Assembly: GCA_928724745.1 (NCBI GenBank)
Contig: CAKMXJ010000005.1
Location: 310,001 to 374,000, forward strand
Direction: 5' to 3'
DNA length: 64,000 nucleotides
Source of the DNA: Anthracocystis setariae
Lineage: Eukaryota > Basidiomycota > Ustilaginomycetes > Ustilaginales > Ustilaginaceae
How positions within the stretch are numbered: the stretch's first letter is position 1; each line of letters starts with the position of its first letter. The notes under the pieces are model-generated. The model ran no database searches and was not told the DNA's origin. It saw only the letters and a list, made by a program, of their open reading frames with translations. The position numbers and the translations under genes are program-made. Below, in pieces: positions 4,728 to 21,309 of the stretch.

Positions 4728-4793
<66 letters not shown>
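4728..4793. repeat. TGCT microsatellite, about 16 copies
   Basis: About 16 perfect consecutive copies of the tetranucleotide TGCT. Its perfection suggests it is length-polymorphic. It lies about 320 bp downstream of the stop of the 962-residue protein gene, outside any gene I can support. Confidence 0.95.
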
Positions 4794-5108
4794 GTGCTCA
4801 TTTTCCCCGCAAGCAAGTCTTTTCAGCTCCGTGATCCATGTGCTTTAACCTAACTGCGAATGCACACACGACAGATGCCGCAAACACCGCTCAGACCGGA
4901 GGCACGATCCAGTACAGTACTAGTTGGAACCGGATAAATTGATACAGTGAACAGATGCGCTTGGGTTGCGATCATATGACGGGCTAGTAGGCTAGAAATA
5001 CAGTTGTTGGCTAACGAGAAAAGTACTCAACCCTCTCAATGAAGAAAGATCCAAGCCAAAGTTGAAGCGAGAACACCGATGATGTCCACATATATAGGCG
5101 GTTTGTGG

Positions 5109-12297: not shown

Positions 12298-15200
12298 TTA
12301 CGAAGACGCTGGTGCAGTTTCGTCGATCGCCTCATCATCTTCCTGGTTGATCATCGTCAGACGCTTTTTGTGTTCCCTCTTGCGGAGACTTCGCTTGAAG
12401 ACTTCGGGCATCAGCTTGTCCTTCATGCTCTTCCTCTTCGTCGAGCGGCTAGGCTCGTCCGACGAAAACGTATATCCACGGTTGGGTCTCGCCTCGCCTG
12501 TCAACATGTCGTAATGCGTACTGCTAGCGCGAGAGGCTGTCGGCTGCAGCTCATGCATCGGTAAACCCCCTTGCGCCGCCAAACCCTCGCCGCCATCCAA
12601 CCTCGAGGCCGACGTCGCGGCGCGCACAAGCGGGGCAAATGTATGGTGCGTCATGCTGGGTCGACCCGCAACCGAGGTGGAGTCGCCATGGCCAGAGGAA
12701 TGTGGGATCGCCGGATCGCGAGTAAAGTCGTGATCCGGATCGTTCTTGTCCACGCTCCGCAGGATGTCGATGTCGGTAGGGTAGTAAGACTGGCGGAGGC
12801 ACTTGGCCAACGTGCGTGGCAGCAGACACAGGAACAGTGTGATGAGGCCCAACACCCAAAACTGAATCGAGGGATAGAGGAAGGCGTTGTTGCCGTACGA
12901 GTAGGTAGAGCTGAACGAGGCGTAGATGGGCGCAAAGCAGAACATGACGACGGTTCCAGCCCAGACACCAACGAAAGTGAACCAGCTCCATGCCATCGAG
13001 TTCATACCGACGAACAAGTTGGCCACCAGCACCGATGCAATCGCCATGCCCGTTGACCATTCATACAGGTTGATGTCGTAGCCGTCGCTGCGCACTGTAG
13101 TCGTGTTGTAAGTGTAGGCGAAGAAGAAGAAAAGGATCACCGATTGGTAGACACCATCGAAGAAGAAGATGATGAAAGGCTTGAGACCAAAGTAGGCTCC
13201 TTTGCGTGACTGGTGGTAGAGCTCGGGCACCTGCATGAGCACCTTGTCGCTGATGTTGCGGTCAAAGATACCAACAAAGATGACGGCGAGCACCGTCCAG
13301 ATGGCGTTCCAGAGTAGAATATAGACGTAGTCGATCGCTTGCGTGGTGGACCAGGCGCAGTAGATCTGGAACCAGAAAAGCGTGCCGACCTGGATGAACT
13401 GCTTGTAGAAGAAGTTGGTGATCATGGTAGAGTTGCGATAGTAGGACCAGTGGCCGTGTACGAGCACCAATCGCTTTAGGAAGCGGAACTGAGCGATAGC
13501 GTAGTCGGAACAGTTGACGGCTTGCAGACCTTCCTCACCGGCGATACCCACGCCCACATGGGCGGCTTGAATCATGCTGACGTCGTTGGCACCGTCACCG
13601 ATAGCGAGCGTCATGACACCGAGACCATCCTTGATGAGCTTCACGATGAGGGCCTTTTGCAAGGGTGAAACACGGCAGCAGATGACAGCCTTGCACTGCG
13701 TCGAGATGCGCAGGAGAAGATCCTTGCTGAAGTCTTCGCTGAGCGCGTATCCGAGAGCGGTACCATCGATGACCAGTGCAAAGCCACCCGAGCGCTCTCC
13801 GTTATCCTCTCCAACGAGCGAAACCTGACTGACACTGCTACGGCGATGGGACATCGATCTGCGCGACATGAACGAGGAACGACGACTGTCGGACTCTTCG
13901 CCCGGCGGCTGATGTTCCATTTCCTTGAGAACTGCTGGCCCGCCAAAGAAGCGGATGACCGCCTTTCGCAGTTGCTCGTACGCGGAATTGGGTTGGCCGT
14001 ATTCACCACCCCGGACGACGACCAAGTTCATGTCCTCGGTCAGCAGCATTGTGCTGTAACCAATAGCAATGGCCGTCTCGAGCTTATCGCCCGTAGCGAC
14101 CCAGACGTTGATGCCTGCACGTTTGAGGTCGGCGATGGTCTCGGGAACACCGTCCTGAAGCTTGTCCTCGATGGCAGTGGCACCGTAGAGGTCAAAGTCC
14201 TTCTCCAGCTCGCTAGCGAGCTCTTCCATCTTCTCTTCACGCTCGTGGATCGCGACGGAAGCATTGTGGAATCGATGCGACCAATCGTCGTAGAACTCTT
14301 GGGTGAGCGACTTGCCGCCGAGACAAAGAGTTCGAAGACCTTTGTTGGCGAACTCCTCGAGCGCAGCGTCGGTAGCGTCCTTGATCTCGTCCTGACCTGC
14401 TCGGGCACGCTCGAACATGATACTATCCGCACCTTTTGCGAGCAGTAGCAAGTGACCATCGGATTCGCGGCGTACGACGACACTCATCCTCTTTCGTGCG
14501 GAGGAGAATTCGTTGACCGTTAGCAGCTCGTAGATTTCGGGTTCCTTGGAGAATGGAGTGAGGATCCGAAGAGTTTGACGTTCTTTGCCCAAAAAGATGA
14601 ACCCGGCATCAGCTGCCGCCTGCACAAGGGCCTGTTCGTCGGGGCTCTGCGCCTGGTATTCGATGCAGCCCTCTCCGACTTCCTCGACAAGGACGGTGTG
14701 ACAGAGCGCAAGGCAGCGGAAGAAATCGCCGATCTGTTTGCAGTGCTCGGACTCGGTGTCAGTCAGTGCATCGGTCAACCTATGGTCACGGAAGGCGGGA
14801 CTATCGAGGTTGGCAGGTTTGACGCGAACTTTGAAGGAATCGCCGTGATCCGACCCGTCATTGCTGGAATAAGCGTCCTTCTCCGAGTTGGCGGTGGGCA
14901 CATCTGTTGCAGTGGTGTCGGAAGCGCCAGCTTCGGTCGGATTGGTTTCGCCGTGGTAGATGACACCAGAGATGGCGCATTCTCGGAAGATCATGACATT
15001 CTGGGTCAGGGTGCCGGTCTTGTCACTGAAAATGTACTCGATCTGGCCGAGGTCATCGGAGAGGTTCCAAGACTTTGCGGTAGTGCGGCGGTTGGTCTTC
15101 TCGTACCAGATATCGTAGTCGTCATAGATAAAGTAGGCTTGAGCGAGACGAACAAACTCGAACGAAATGTAGAGCGAAATGGGTACGATGTTCTGGAATG

Positions 15201-16782
15201 TGATGAGCGAATTGGCGAAAGCAATGAGACCGTTGATGTGAGGGTTGTCGTCCGAGTGTGTTGCGCCAAACTCCCAGTAAGCGTCACGGTCGAAGTAGTA
15301 TTGCTCGAGCACCGAGTCAGCGATAGCGCAGGCTACAGAGACGCAGGCAAGCACGATCAGGTTGAAATAGACCATGGGGTTCATCTGCTTCTCGACTTTG
15401 GAGCGCTTGCTCGGGGTCATACCGGAGTTTGCGACGACCTTGGTGTCCCAGCCGGTCATGAGGACAATGCCGACGACCCACTTGGTGTTTCGAAGGTTGC
15501 ATCCACGCAGCAAGATCTGGTTGAGCGTGACAGGGCACTGGATAGGGTTGCCATCCTTGTCGAATCGATCGTTGAGCACTACACTGGCGTTGAGGCGGTA
15601 CATGTTGGTGTCCTGAGGTTCGGCGTCGATGCGGAGAGAGGCACGAGCGCAATCCTCGGGCTTTTGAAGCGAGGTGAGTTCTGGCACGGCATGGCGAGCT
15701 TTGAGGTTGGTCTCGCCGTCGAGGTTCTTTGTTTCAATGAAACAAGTGTCCTCCTCTTCGCTAGTGGCGCAGATGACAATGTCGGCAGGGATGGACTCGT
15801 TGTTGGAAAGAAGGACAAAGTCTCCAACAGCAAGGTCTTCCCAGTTCTTGTTCTTCCAGCGAGGAGCTTTCTTGGCGAAGAAGGCATGCTCTTCGTCGGC
15901 GTTGAGGATGCGACCGTTGTGCCTGATGCGACCGTCCTCGAGCTGCTCATATTCGGACTCGAACTGGCTGTGACGAGTGGTGCTTCGTCGCGGAAGTTGA
16001 TGTGAGGCTCGCACCGGAAGATCACCGCTCTGGGTGTGAGCTGCATGGGCTGCTCCGCCACCGGGCGCATCGGCTGGAGGCGAAATGGGTTCGTGTGGTG
16101 TGTGGGCATGACCTCCTTCAGCTGCAGCTTCCGCTTTGGCGGCCATCTCTTTCTGAAGTCGGGAGGATTTGCTCATCTTGCCGCCAAAGAGCTTTTCTTT
16201 GACCGAGGCAAGCAAGGCGGCGGCGCTTCTGCTTTTGGGTTCCATGACGTTGGGATTCTTCCAACCACCGCCTGTGAGGGTGTGGACTCTGAGGCGATTG
16301 ATTGCGCGGTCTGACTGGTGACGTTTGATGTCCTCGTACCCATCCTTGGCCATGGTGATGGCCAGAACAGCAAGCAGAGGAAGCATGGAGAGACCCGGGT
16401 TGATGGTGGTGAACTGGGGGAAGAACTGCAGAATCACGATCAGCAAGAAAAAGAGGTTGGCAACGCGACGAAACTGCTCGAGCAAGTTCTTGAGGACGAA
16501 GTTGTAGATGGTATATTTGGCTGTCAAGACCTGGTTGCTGGCAAAGACGTAAGGGTATTGCGGATGGCCTTTGGCGTCAAAGGCGTCTGGCGGAAGAGGC
16601 TCATTGAAATAGACAGAGCGAGGTGCAGGTGGTGGGCGTGTCTTTTTGAAAACTTGCTCAGGGTCAAAGCTGATATTGGAGAGTTTGGTGCGGAATGCTT
16701 GAAGCTTGGATACCGACGAAGCACCATTGGCAGAGCCAGCGTTGACCTGGCTCTTCTTGCGTGAACTAGCTTTGCCAAACAT
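12298..16782 (-). CDS. P4-type ATPase, Dnf1/Dnf2-like phospholipid flippase (1494 aa)
   Basis: Intronless 1494-codon frame. It has all P4-ATPase signatures: the actuator motif DGETNLK (355-361), the PISL segment in helix 4 (534-537), the phosphorylation motif DKTGTLT with catalytic Asp587, the nucleotide-domain motif WVATGDKLETAIAIGYS, and the hinge GDGANDVSMIQ. Two N-terminal helices lie at about 100-147, and a block of six C-terminal helices precedes a charged, disordered tail. The GDKLETA form and overall layout fit the Dnf1/Dnf2 group rather than Drs2 or Neo1. By family it moves phosphatidylcholine/ethanolamine to the cytosolic leaflet of plasma or endosomal membranes, with a Cdc50/Lem3-type beta subunit (not in this window). 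A low-complexity insertion of roughly 90 residues (about 195-285) precedes the rest of the actuator region. Confidence 0.95.
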   Translation of the reverse strand: MFGKASSRKKSQVNAGSANGASSVSKLQAFRTKLSNISFDPEQVFKKTRPPPAPRSVYFNEPLPPDAFDAKGHPQYPYVFASNQVLTAKYTIYNFVLKNLLEQFRRVANLFFLLIVILQFFPQFTTINPGLSMLPLLAVLAITMAKDGYEDIKRHQSDRAINRLRVHTLTGGGWKNPNVMEPKSRSAAALLASVKEKLFGGKMSKSSRLQKEMAAKAEAAAEGGHAHTPHEPISPPADAPGGGAAHAAHTQSGDLPVRASHQLPRRSTTRHSQFESEYEQLEDGRIRHNGRILNADEEHAFFAKKAPRWKNKNWEDLAVGDFVLLSNNESIPADIVICATSEEEDTCFIETKNLDGETNLKARHAVPELTSLQKPEDCARASLRIDAEPQDTNMYRLNASVVLNDRFDKDGNPIQCPVTLNQILLRGCNLRNTKWVVGIVLMTGWDTKVVANSGMTPSKRSKVEKQMNPMVYFNLIVLACVSVACAIADSVLEQYYFDRDAYWEFGATHSDDNPHINGLIAFANSLITFQNIVPISLYISFEFVRLAQAYFIYDDYDIWYEKTNRRTTAKSWNLSDDLGQIEYIFSDKTGTLTQNVMIFRECAISGVIYHGETNPTEAGASDTTATDVPTANSEKDAYSSNDGSDHGDSFKVRVKPANLDSPAFRDHRLTDALTDTESEHCKQIGDFFRCLALCHTVLVEEVGEGCIEYQAQSPDEQALVQAAADAGFIFLGKERQTLRILTPFSKEPEIYELLTVNEFSSARKRMSVVVRRESDGHLLLLAKGADSIMFERARAGQDEIKDATDAALEEFANKGLRTLCLGGKSLTQEFYDDWSHRFHNASVAIHEREEKMEELASELEKDFDLYGATAIEDKLQDGVPETIADLKRAGINVWVATGDKLETAIAIGYSTMLLTEDMNLVVVRGGEYGQPNSAYEQLRKAVIRFFGGPAVLKEMEHQPPGEESDSRRSSFMSRRSMSHRRSSVSQVSLVGEDNGERSGGFALVIDGTALGYALSEDFSKDLLLRISTQCKAVICCRVSPLQKALIVKLIKDGLGVMTLAIGDGANDVSMIQAAHVGVGIAGEEGLQAVNCSDYAIAQFRFLKRLVLVHGHWSYYRNSTMITNFFYKQFIQVGTLFWFQIYCAWSTTQAIDYVYILLWNAIWTVLAVIFVGIFDRNISDKVLMQVPELYHQSRKGAYFGLKPFIIFFFDGVYQSVILFFFFAYTYNTTTVRSDGYDINLYEWSTGMAIASVLVANLFVGMNSMAWSWFTFVGVWAGTVVMFCFAPIYASFSSTYSYGNNAFLYPSIQFWVLGLITLFLCLLPRTLAKCLRQSYYPTDIDILRSVDKNDPDHDFTRDPAIPHSSGHGDSTSVAGRPSMTHHTFAPLVRAATSASRLDGGEGLAAQGGLPMHELQPTASRASSTHYDMLTGEARPNRGYTFSSDEPSRSTKRKSMKDKLMPEVFKRSLRKREHKKRLTMINQEDDEAIDETAPASS

Positions 16783-17451: not shown

Positions 17452-17879
17452 GTACACACGCACCCACCAGGCTAGCTTTCCGATATCCTCAGACCGGAGG
17501 TTCAAGGGGACCGGGTCGCAGTGAACTGTGAGCCAGCAAAGAGGCTGGTTCGCGGTGGATTGAAGCGGTAAGTGGCGATGCTGTGCTTGGATGAGGCAAA
17601 TTTCAAACAATAACAAAAATAATAACAATTATACGAGTGTCTCCGGGCTGTGGCATCCGCTGACGATTTGTCAGAAAGGCCCACTGTACCGATGCATCTC
17701 AGCCCAACCAACCAAGCTTAGCCTGCCTGCCTGCATTTTTATTTAATTGAAGGGCAGCAGACCGTGTCTAGAAAACATCGTAAGAGTAGTAGTGTAGTGC
17801 TAAGTACTGTATTTAACTCCTTCTACTGCATGCTCCGTCTGCGTTTCAAGTCAGTGAATTCAATACACTGAAGAATTTA

Positions 17880-18370
17880 TTCCTCCGTGCATCCCGTAGC
17901 GTGAATAGGAGTTTCATAGCGTGATGCTTCTATCCTCGTAACATGATGCCATAACATGATACTGTGTTCATAGCATGATAGACCATTGTCATTACATGAT
18001 GCCTGCCAATGTCGTGACGTGAAAGTCCGATCTTAGCGTGATGTTCGCCAATGCCATAACGTGATACTCCTCTCATAGCGTTACGAGGTGTAGCTGGCTG
18101 ACGAGGTGTAGCTGGCTGAACAAGTAGAGGAGGAGGATGTGTGGCGACCGGACCGTGCACAGACCAAACTCAGCTGCTGAGTCACGCTTGATCTTGACAA
18201 CAAGGGATCACGCTATGAGAGGAGTATCACGTTACGACATTGGCAGGCATCATGTAATGACAATGGTCTATCATGCTATGAACACAGTATCATGTTATGG
18301 TCAGCTTCCACGCTAACAACGTGTTCACGTTATGGGATCGAATTTTCACGCTACGGGATGCACGGAGGAA
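17880..18370. mobile_element. Foldback/MITE-like element, 491 bp, TA target duplication
   Basis: The ends are a perfect 26-bp inverted repeat (17880-17905 against 18345-18370) flanked by the dinucleotide TA on both sides (17878-17879 and 18371-18372). Inside, a perfect 67-bp inverted repeat pairs 17949-18015 with 18234-18300, and a 24-bp one pairs 18058-18081 with 18210-18233, so nearly the whole element can fold into one long hairpin. The left arm has about 42 bp (18016-18057) with no partner. The arms are built from degenerate copies of a word like ATAACRTGAT. The loop contains two adjacent 18-bp direct copies (18083-18100, 18101-18118). No coding capacity is seen. TA duplication is typical of Tc1/mariner-related MITEs; the foldback build is less typical. 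Confidence 0.7.
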
Positions 18371-19212
18371 TATTAATATTTGATTTACTGGCCGAATTAG
18401 AAGTGGGCTCACGTCAACGTACTCCACTTGACCTCCTCGGACTGCATTCGTGTACTTTTTAATTTTCAGACTATATTCAAGTGCATACAGTACGAGAGTG
18501 CCGTACAGAGCTGTGCTTGGAATACTCTATCGCGTACTGTACCCTTACTCCTAGAACTGGAAATATAGAATATTTGAATCCCCGACCCAGCTCACGCTCT
18601 ACTCAAAATGCATGGAAGATCGGCCCGACCGACCTGCATCGCGCCATCTGTTGTTATCCGCGGCTTTGCTCGTCGTTGGCTTGCATTCGTCGCTTCAAGC
18701 TGCAAAACCCTGCTCAAATTGAAAAAACATCGGTGCCAATCCTGCAATACCACAGTGGCGATGATGACAAGTACCGTAGATTGTCACCGAAAATCAGTCC
18801 TGACAGCGCTTGATACAGTAGGCGAACAAGTCTTTCGGCGTAAATCTGCTGACAGATGGCTTGCGTCCATTCAGTGCACTGTCAGAGCGCATGAACTCAT
18901 TACAGCCTAACCTCTGTCCAAAGATTTTTTTCTTTTGGCAGGTCCGCGGAGTCCTTGCAAAAACAGTCCGTGTCCACTACACTGTTTCCGACAGGTCCCC
19001 GCCGATGGATACAGTACGCTATGCAAATTTCACCTTACAGTACATCTACAGGAGCTGAAAAAACGTGTTCGCCCCCCTAGAGTGTTGGAATCGACTTATC
19101 GGCCGCATCTCTCCCGGGATCTGCAGGGTCCGTCTTCTCGCCAGAGTCCACCTTCAGTGTCATGTCTCCTTTAAATAAGGCTCATCAATGCAAAGAACAA
19201 CCAAAAAAGCAA

Positions 19213-19506: not shown

Positions 19507-21309
19507 TTACTTGTCTGTGCCGAGCTTCTTCTGAAAGAACGCACGAACATCTTCCTCGCGAACCATCTTTCCCGTGCCCGCGAATGGCTTGAGATGCTCC
19601 CACAGCGCATCTTTGAATTTGCTGTAGGCATGCAGTGAGTTGATCATCTTTTCCCTTGGCATCGAGCGCAGTGCTGCCATCCCGAGATCATAGGTCGAAG
19701 ATGTGATCGACGCCGCATCATCGTCACGCACAGATGCATGCGGGTCTGAAGGCGGCGCGTACGTTTCCTCGGCATCAAGAACGTGTGGAAGATCGGCCCA
19801 CTTTGCAAGACATCCTGAGCACCGGCAGATCCGGCTACGGAACTCTTCGCTCAGGAAGATATCGTATCGCTGCACAGAGCTGCCGGGTTCCCCATCTTGA
19901 TTCAGCGCTGGAGTCCATTCGTCGACCTTGGATCTGGGTAGGCTTGTTACGATAGAGAGGCCCTCTGGAAGCATGCATTGCTGCTCTTTGGACGCTGTCT
20001 CCGGCTTGACGCTCGAGCTTGAATTCGCGTCATCTCGTATTTTTTGTGCTACTCCGTCAACCTCTACTCTTGGTCGTTTACTGCTTTGTTCCTCCACCGC
20101 CTCCTCCGTGGGCTCTTCGCCAGCGCGTCGTTTCCCATCTCGTTTTACCGTGTCAGATGAACTTTGAGCGGCATTGGTCTCCGAAGTTGCCACTAGCTCA
20201 CTTGACTCTGTGTCGTTCTCGCTTGTCATATTTGTCAGCGTGGTAGAGGCTGCTGCCAGAGAGGATCGCGCAAGATCGGCAACGGAGGACAACAGAGCTC
20301 CATCAGCTGCGGCGGTCACCTCGGTTTCGGTCAATGCTCTCTCTGGATCCATCGGCAGTCCAAAGATTTGCCAGCTTCGTCCTCCAGGATATGGTCCGCC
20401 TTCCTGGCGCAGCTCTTCCTCTGTAGGAACCTGAATCTTTGCAATCCCATCATGCTGCTTCACGTCCACCACGTCCTGACTAGGGGCCAGCAACATCCAG
20501 CCTCTCGCACCGGCGTACCGTCGAAGGAGCACGTTGTTGGGCCTGCGCACGCAAGCATCGCAGATCATCAAATCGAAAAGATCGTGATCGATCAGAGGCG
20601 GTTCCGCTTCTGTAGTCGACGCAGATGTTGCCGCCCGCGCAGATGGACGCAGGGAGGTGCAGCTCTCGTGCAGCCATTCTTCGCAGACGATGCACTGAAA
20701 CATGGTTTCGTCTTCTTTCTCTGGGTCGTAGGTCTTGCCCCTCTCGCAGTAGCAGAAGCCGCCGTCGAAGTTGTGGTTGTATGCGTTGGCATCGTTTTGC
20801 GGGTCAAATCCAGGCTTCCTCAACGTGCAAGGCGCCGCGCCCGCGGGAAAGGTGAGTTCGTCTACCAGACGGGGGCAACGGCTGGCGTGGTTGGGCTCAC
20901 GCTGCCGGTACAAGTTGGGAGTTCCACAGTCGCATCGAAACTTGCGCTTGTTGAAGAGTTCGACGAGGTCGTGTTCGGCATGGCAAGAGACACTGCAACC
21001 AGCACAGACACCTCCGCCACCGCACGTCTTGCAGGCATAGACTGGTTGACGAATGTAGCCCTTTTCGTGCGTGCAGGTATCGAATTGGAATGGGATCGCT
21101 TCGTTGGCTTGAGCTTCCAATTTGGCTTGCTGAGCGATCAGATCAGCGGCTGTGAAGCCGACCTCGTCTTCGCCCAAGTTTGGCGCTGGAAGCGAGGGAT
21201 CCGGAAGCGCCGTCGATGTCGAGGACGGCGCAGCTGAGGCCGAAGCCGATGTCGATGCTGACGATGATAGCTTGGTTTTGTCACATTCGCTCATGTTGGC
21301 TGTGGTCAT
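19507..21309 (-). CDS. UBR7/Mlo2-like protein with UBR box and PHD-type finger (600 aa)
   Basis: Intronless 600-codon frame. Residues about 79-145 form a UBR-type zinc finger (CTHEKGYIRQPVYACKTC, then CAGCSVSCHAEHDLVELF, then FRCDCGTPN). Residues about 186-260 carry a Cys/His-rich PHD-like finger (CYCERGKTYDPE, then QCIVCEEWLHESC). This order is that of human UBR7 and fission yeast Mlo2, candidate E3 ubiquitin ligases of N-degron or chromatin type. The middle (about 350-430) is acidic, Ser/Thr-rich and disordered, with KRAGEEPTEEAVEEQSSKRPR resembling a nuclear localisation region. The C-terminal region has further conserved-looking segments. It is divergently transcribed from the CREG-like gene, sharing about 620 bp of promoter. 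Confidence 0.9.
   Translation of the reverse strand: MTTANMSECDKTKLSSSASTSASASAAPSSTSTALPDPSLPAPNLGEDEVGFTAADLIAQQAKLEAQANEAIPFQFDTCTHEKGYIRQPVYACKTCGGGGVCAGCSVSCHAEHDLVELFNKRKFRCDCGTPNLYRQREPNHASRCPRLVDELTFPAGAAPCTLRKPGFDPQNDANAYNHNFDGGFCYCERGKTYDPEKEDETMFQCIVCEEWLHESCTSLRPSARAATSASTTEAEPPLIDHDLFDLMICDACVRRPNNVLLRRYAGARGWMLLAPSQDVVDVKQHDGIAKIQVPTEEELRQEGGPYPGGRSWQIFGLPMDPERALTETEVTAAADGALLSSVADLARSSLAAASTTLTNMTSENDTESSELVATSETNAAQSSSDTVKRDGKRRAGEEPTEEAVEEQSSKRPRVEVDGVAQKIRDDANSSSSVKPETASKEQQCMLPEGLSIVTSLPRSKVDEWTPALNQDGEPGSSVQRYDIFLSEEFRSRICRCSGCLAKWADLPHVLDAEETYAPPSDPHASVRDDDAASITSSTYDLGMAALRSMPREKMINSLHAYSKFKDALWEHLKPFAGTGKMVREEDVRAFFQKKLGTDK

Follow-up and report, generated by a model that had tools for sequence, protein, structure and literature searches.

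Ends of the Sleeping Beauty type, with their inverted repeat/direct repeat (IR/DR) layout, carry two direct repeats per end. For Tc1/mariner transposons more broadly, excerpts of the literature describe two or three direct repeats per end (PMC4120734). Bari, a Drosophila member of this superfamily, is about 1.7 kb long and has ends of about 250 bp with three spaced direct repeats that are bound by the transposase, according to parts of two papers (PMC4877112, PMC4120734), and excerpts of the first state that Bari-related miniature inverted-repeat transposable elements (MITEs) are thought to stem from internal deletion. Here we describe a 495-bp unit from the smut fungus Anthracocystis setariae, found in a 64-kb stretch of contig CAKMXJ010000005.1 (positions 310,001 to 374,000; hereafter, the window). 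We consider it very probable that this unit, which is MITE-like, derives by deletion from a Ustilaginaceae Tc1/mariner-type transposon. The arrays of short words in its two arms are most likely transposase-binding sites.

Three other systems are relevant to the comparison, each cited from excerpts. DAHLIAE1 of Verticillium is a Tc1/mariner element with TA duplications, ends of 41-62 bp, direct repeats of 15-17 bp that were read as transposase sites, and a DDE_1 protein of 551 residues (PMC3441728). Galileo of Drosophila belongs to the P superfamily and has ends longer than 1 kb, with sites at about 70, 561-577 and 701-718 bp identified by footprinting and binding tests (PMC3688188). In Wolbachia insertion sequences, the interior has been inverted by recombination between the terminal repeats, and this inversion may impede survival (PMC3004938).

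As far as these excerpts go, the smut element resembles each system in part. Like Bari, it has several spaced direct repeats per end and gene-less deletion derivatives; like Sleeping Beauty, it has repeats inside its ends and a DDE transposase with a paired-type helix-turn-helix (HTH) and a similar catalytic fold, the latter seen in the model of a homologue. DAHLIAE1 is likewise a fungal member of the superfamily with direct repeats inside its ends, and long, internally repetitive terminal repeats are shared with Galileo and Foldback. In contrast to the three repeats per end of Bari and the two of Sleeping Beauty, each arm of about 165 bp has about eight phased words, and host and transposase differ from those of Bari. 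The element is unlike DAHLIAE1 in its ~165-bp arms and its DDE_3 protein of 367 residues, and unlike Galileo in being of the Tc1/mariner type, with short arms and a regular spacing of ~20 bp. Its interior can be flipped relative to the ends, as in Wolbachia, but here the flipped form stands at two sites in a eukaryote rather than in a bacterium. We found no description of the variant seen here, in which the ends hold eight phased words and the arms are of two types; the MITE itself is ordinary. Among the results listed, a literature search of titles and abstract openings, which does not show absence in print, returned no description of such arrays or of this family, and a text search of two smut-genome papers found neither "Tc1" nor "mariner" (PMC9603552, PMC4081816).

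Genomic copies and a transposase-coding relative

A first-pass annotation of the window had reported a 491-bp foldback transposable element with perfect 26-bp terminal repeats. This is the same unit without its flanking TAs; when these are counted, the unit measures 495 bp and its perfect terminal repeats 28 bp. Across the 21.5-Mb genome, the 28-bp end (at most 3 mismatches) gave 12 matches, forming 6 inverted pairs, compared with 0 for a reversed-pattern control, and the unit is therefore not a single-copy structure. The six two-ended copies, which we call subfamily A, include three of 495-501 bp: 495 bp in the window (C5), 495 bp on C4 and 501 bp at C1:79411. The others measure 249 bp (C20), 1,688 bp (C32) and 9,884 bp (C1:481916). 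A chance inverted repeat is ruled out by the six pairs against none in the control, and by the lack of other such pairs in the window: a scan for arms of at least 24 bp that share an exact 14-base seed and lie no more than 3 kb apart found 3 inverted pairs in total, every one inside 17878-18372. Segmental duplication in place of transposition is also rejected, as an all-against-all comparison of the flanks of the six copies, which lie at unrelated sites, found no long match. A single base of 495 separates the window copy from the C4 copy, which bears out the recent activity that had been proposed.

Whole open transposase frames are kept in two of the six subfamily A copies. Because two relatives keep this frame, we read the window unit as a deletion derivative of a Tc1/mariner-type element. 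The 1,688-bp C32 element codes for transposase and has its arms, and the leader that makes up part of the interior, in common with the window unit. The protein, encoded by the full-length relatives and not by the window unit, has 367 residues and matches DDE_3 (E 4.2e-27). Its catalytic triad is D163/D246/E281, with 34 residues between D246 and E281 (DD34E). The N-terminus matches the PAX profile at 9.4e-6, which passes the cut-off, while HTH_32 and HTH_SB fall short of theirs. In the predicted structure of the homologue P0003, the catalytic-domain fold matches Mos1 and Sleeping Beauty, and the N-terminal helices align with Mos1 starting at residue 3-9. A sequence search of PDB gave nothing under E 0.15, and the Pfam matches of the transposase up to E 1 included no P/THAP profile.

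A DDE/D core and a paired-like HTH N-terminus, both in the full-length relatives, together with TA-bounded terminal inverted repeats, place the family in the IS630-Tc1-mariner group. The window unit has the attributes of a MITE, being 495 bp long, without a gene (no open reading frame (ORF) of at least 100 codons overlaps it) and with ends common to an autonomous element of the same genome. Four of the six two-ended subfamily A copies are gene-less, short of the many-copy amplification of MITEs, and we therefore use the label MITE-like. The ends are also long, internally repetitive and inverted, as in foldback elements, which is a structural resemblance only. The earlier foldback assignment holds for a TA-bounded, genome-repeated, foldback-like form, but not for descent, since the arms and part of the interior belong to the 1,688-bp Tc1/mariner-type element. 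Assignment to Galileo would call for a P-superfamily transposase, whereas the partner transposase is of the DDE_3/Tc1-mariner type.

A sister subfamily, B, has six two-ended copies and a transposase 73-76% identical to that of A. In two comparisons between A and B, synonymous divergence (dS) was 1.3-1.6 and the ratio of nonsynonymous to synonymous divergence (dN/dS) was 0.10-0.12; between the B copies B36 and B37, dN/dS was 0.72, with very few changes. One subfamily B end without a partner in the 3-mismatch search (C23:63855) was excluded from the arm count. Five more distant families of the clade have 45-51% protein identity.

In subfamilies A and B, each of the 12 two-ended copies has TA on both sides. 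Rejoining the flanks at the C4 site leaves one TA, and the same is seen in 8 of 10 paralogous ends fetched from 12 junction-reaching matches, but the homology on the left amounts to just three bases. TA is thus a putative duplicated target site, a reading that these results support rather than prove. A rejoined-flank search of 11 insertion sites, not exhaustive (40 of 65 candidates scored), found no full empty site. The right flank at C4 is repetitive, with at least 22 further matches, 12 of them reaching the junction, and a subfamily B copy on C3 has a right flank that is repetitive from about 22 bases past the junction (4 matches).

Other repeats adjoin or interrupt these copies. Next to the C4 copy is an inverted repeat of 290 bp and 99% identity (L032:3668-3957 / 4760-5047, G000:C4) from another dispersed family, whose end coincides with the C4 insertion point and which accounts for at least 22 further matches. 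A long terminal repeat (LTR) retrotransposon of ~8.2 kb (L027:5276 to L028:4471; G000:C1, about 483,275-491,471) with two identical 361-bp LTRs interrupts the full-length element that makes up the 9,884-bp copy, and the CATGG target duplication of this insertion covers the transposase start codon. A single LTR, ~90% identical to the 361-bp LTR and apparently a solo LTR, lies inside a subfamily B transposase gene (L033:4903-5261, G000:C21).

Word arrays in the arms

Words resembling TAACGTGA were called with at most two mismatches, and their positions were fixed from subfamily A alone. Within an arm the words share one orientation, with about eight per ~165-bp arm at ~20-bp intervals. Subfamily A arms are of two types, X and Y. 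Counted inward from the TA, words start at 20, 41, 58, 76, 95, 116, 139 and 158 in X arms and at 20, 40, 62, 75, 94, 115, 138 and 157 in Y arms; some arms have a few extra matches beyond the eight. In the window unit, the X arm (right) has a chain of 8 words at 17-24-bp spacing, a length that 0 of 200 shuffles reach, and the Y arm (left) has a chain of 5, which is reached by 2 of 200. For comparison, 500 random 170-base pieces were taken from the window: a chain of 5 is attained by 10 of them, one of 7 by a single piece and one of 8 by none. The degenerate word repeat noted in the first reading is thus real.

Most word positions of the window unit are also carried by the full-length elements. 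In subfamily B, positions are kept within two bases of those in A, apart from the sites near 138 and 115, and the gene-less B copy L052 keeps both of these in one arm. Words are more conserved than spacers. When C32 was compared to B36, identical columns in the X arm numbered 61/80 in words versus 35/75 in spacers (Fisher p 1.3e-4), and in the Y arm 60/80 versus 38/75 (Fisher p 1.4e-3). Without gaps, the Y arm gave 49/80 word versus 25/75 spacer columns (Fisher p 4.3e-4), and the ungapped Y arms of C32 and B34 gave 48/80 versus 27/75. Judged from the sequences, the words are most likely transposase-binding sites.

It had been proposed that the unit grew by internal duplication. One pair of left-arm units, 18009-18037 and 18051-18079, repeats at 42-bp spacing and looks like a local duplication. 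The array as a whole is not a mere trace of growth in this copy, because most of its positions recur in full-length elements and in a sister subfamily with diverged spacers.

We scored phased chains in 24 arms of 12 clade elements against 200 shuffles each (the set excluded C4, C20, the interrupted C1 copy, L033 and L035), and 17 of the 24 arms stood at no more than 2/200. Three Tc1-like elements of a PF01498-type clade from the same genome served as controls, and none of their six arms did so (6, 48, 84, 85, 197 and 200 of 200). One control, L057, has ends longer than 100 bp with a few spaced repeats, and one of its arms gave 6/200; the terminal repeats of a fourth control locus, L055, were not clear, and it was left out of the scoring.

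Similarly spaced words of other sequence, among them TCATCGTGAAT and TTCGGTA, are found in the five distant families. Of these, L029:1598-3191 has clear array statistics, L048, L050 and L051 have mixed ones, and those of L049 are weak. A stricter test applied subfamily A's own lattice, derived from C32, to 14 clade arms with 200 shuffles. Both arms of C32 (the lattice source), B36-5' (shift 4) and both arms of L029:1598-3191 (shift 11) gave 0/200; the last was the only distant family to pass. L050 gave 4 and 9, L051-3' 4 and B36-3' 14 of 200, compared with 51-198 for six control arms. When words were counted without regard to phase, 14 of 16 arms were at no more than 5/200. The exceptions were L048-3' (124/200) and L050-5' (81/200), and a count of 7 words is also attained by 22 of the 500 random pieces.

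Two distant elements have perfectly identical arms, L049:247-391 / 1756-1900 (145 bp) and L048:79-163 / 1898-1982 (85 bp), and this may reflect gene conversion or very recent movement.

Arm types, flipped interiors and architecture

Each of the 12 two-ended A and B copies found in the genome has one X and one Y arm (11 typed by score; L033, with a one-base deletion in the Y arm, by inspection). In the window and C4 copies, the arms are exchanged relative to the interior when compared with C32 and C1:79411. The outer segments of the window unit are 96% and 83% identical to the opposite-side segments of C32, versus 49% and 60% for same-side segments. The same exchange is seen in subfamily B, where the outer segments of B37 are 100% and 96% identical to the opposite-side segments of B36, and the two copies are 99% identical across a 1,300-bp stretch that covers most of the gene. 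Recombination between the long inverted arms would explain these flips in two lineages simply and would also keep the arms alike. The flip has apparently not prevented movement, given that flipped copies stand at two places in the genome.

The features of the window unit are collected in Table 1. Its X and Y arms, each ~165 bp, are ~83% identical to each other. Perfect inverted pairs of at least 12 bp were listed within the unit; the 67-bp inner pair was as first described, a third pair given earlier as 24 bp measured 25 bp, and one additional pair of 12 bp was found. The interior contains a perfect 18-bp tandem duplication at 18083-18118.

Table 1. Coordinates of the 495-bp unit and its parts within the window.
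Feature	Position	Strand	Remark
Whole element	17878..18372	.	495 bp including TA at each end; also at C4:820766-821260 and four further places with the same ends
Left TA, presumed copy of target TA	17878..17879	.	TA at both ends in 12/12 two-ended A and B copies
Right TA, presumed copy of target TA	18371..18372	.	TA at both ends in 12/12 two-ended A and B copies
Left outer end, perfect 28-bp inverted repeat	17878..17905	+	Inverted-pair search within unit
Right outer end, perfect 28-bp inverted repeat	18345..18372	-	Inverted-pair search within unit
Left arm, type Y	17878..18042	+	Typed by third-word position
Right arm, type X	18208..18372	-	Typed by third-word position
Left-arm array, TAACGTGA-like words	17897..18083	+	Starts 17897, 17917, 17939, 17952, 17971, 17992, 18015, 18034; two more at 18057, 18076
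Left-arm array, arm positions	20, 40, 62, 75, 94, 115, 138, 157, 180, 199	+	Proposed transposase-binding sites
Right-arm array, words	18346-18353, 18325-18332, 18308-18315, 18290-18297	-	Array 18208..18353; proposed transposase-binding sites
Right-arm array, remaining words	18271-18278, 18250-18257, 18227-18234, 18208-18215	-	Proposed transposase-binding sites
67-bp perfect inner inverted repeat, left copy	17949..18015	+	Inverted-pair search
67-bp perfect inner inverted repeat, right copy	18234..18300	-	Inverted-pair search
25-bp third pair, left copy, within extra left-arm block absent there from the 1,688-bp element	18057..18081	+	
25-bp third pair, right copy	18210..18234	-	Inverted-pair search
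Interior, remnant of leader upstream of the full-length element's transposase gene	18083..18207	-	Flipped relative to X/Y arms versus the 1,688-bp and 501-bp copies

The unit is intergenic. A phospholipid-flippase-type ORF (12298-16782, minus strand) starts ~1.1 kb away, with the unit on its upstream side, and the unit lies ~1.1 kb past the end of an mlo2/UBR-box ORF (19507-21309, minus strand). The best named relatives of the latter protein come from smuts and related fungi, namely Ustilago trichophora (74%), Kalmanozyma (73%) and Sporisorium reilianum (72%), which points to a host within or close to Ustilaginaceae. Elsewhere in the window, a perfect TGCT tandem repeat of 16.5 copies spans 4728-4793.

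Possible mechanism, alternatives and meaning

From these observations we infer a mechanism in which transposase from a full-length copy, encoded elsewhere in the genome, would mobilise the gene-less unit in trans. Its paired-type N-terminus may dock on the words along one face of each arm, at the spacing of ~20 bp, or two helical turns. The docked transposase could then build a multimer along both arms that pairs the unlike X and Y, followed by cutting at the TA-bounded ends and insertion at a new TA. The long, similar arms would recombine or convert with each other, giving flipped interiors and keeping the arms alike. A more specific proposal, which we make tentatively and regard as rather doubtful, is that the ends throughout this smut clade are helically phased arrays of about eight sites, with two unlike arms that are always paired; transposition would proceed through a large ordered transposase filament, and on a change of specificity ~16 sites would be rewritten in concert by arm recombination, of which the flipped interiors would be the visible sign, while their spacing is retained.

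Several observations weigh against binding along whole arrays and against parts of the assignment. Under the two-mismatch rule, the four full-length subfamily B copies that were scanned lack the site near 138 in all 8 arms, and B36 and B37 also lack the site near 115. In the phased-chain test, B36-5' (6), B37-3' (46) and B34-5' (3 of 200) exceed the threshold, and L048-5' (10), L049 (15 and 16) and L050-3' (9) are weak. The strict lattice fails for L048 (63, 56), L049 (40, 53) and L051-5' (125). In the 249-bp C20 copy the Y arm is truncated, at 75 bp, and a full array in both arms is therefore perhaps not needed. Confidence in the structure model is middling, with a mean predicted local distance difference test (pLDDT) score of 69.6, and the TA duplication rests on the single C4 site and its three bases of left-side homology.

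Some of these points would fit a Tc1/mariner-type MITE whose transposase, in the manner of other Tc1 elements, uses only the outermost one or two words, the others serving a host factor or a promoter or enhancer in the leader. The decay of inner words in subfamily B and the truncated C20 arm favour this possibility, as do the two or three direct repeats per end in the excerpted literature (PMC4120734). We nevertheless consider it unlikely. The words occur in both arms and point inward from both ends, including on the side away from the promoter, and families of one host differ in their words at similar spacing, which is unexpected for a host factor.

A second alternative, very improbable in our view, is a foldback family of independent origin, built up by tandem duplication of a short word, in which the words have no function and no transposase partner exists. 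Its arms would be long, internally repetitive and partly perfect, as observed, and the 42-bp-spaced left-arm unit and the 18-bp duplication in the middle would suit it. However, the arms and leader are common to a transposase-coding element, which largely refutes an orphan family, and the words are conserved above the spacers despite near-saturated synonymous sites, unlike neutral duplicates.

The very stable hairpin that had been anticipated is borne out by the predicted fold of the unit's strand (-292.5 kcal/mol, z = -20.8; none of 100 shuffles folded as stably). The genome holds one Piwi-domain gene, with a match at G000:C11:421877-422797 inside a 1,036-codon open frame, so that this smut probably has a protein of the Argonaute type. 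Given this gene and the predicted fold, the hairpin could feed RNA silencing. That the locus is a hairpin kept by selection as a small-RNA source, which the fold and the Piwi-domain gene would favour, seems very improbable, because any long inverted repeat would fold, and four gene-less copies at unrelated sites, two of them nearly identical, look mobile rather than fixed.

If the words of this Tc1/mariner-type derivative are indeed transposase sites, the family would provide a natural Tc1/mariner end with about eight phased sites, compared with the two or three in the excerpted literature (PMC4120734). Such ends would allow tests of how site number, phase and arm asymmetry control transposon synapsis, and of how a transposase changes in step with its numerous dispersed sites. 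The flipped copies would preserve, in a eukaryote, a natural trace of transposon ends recombining with each other.
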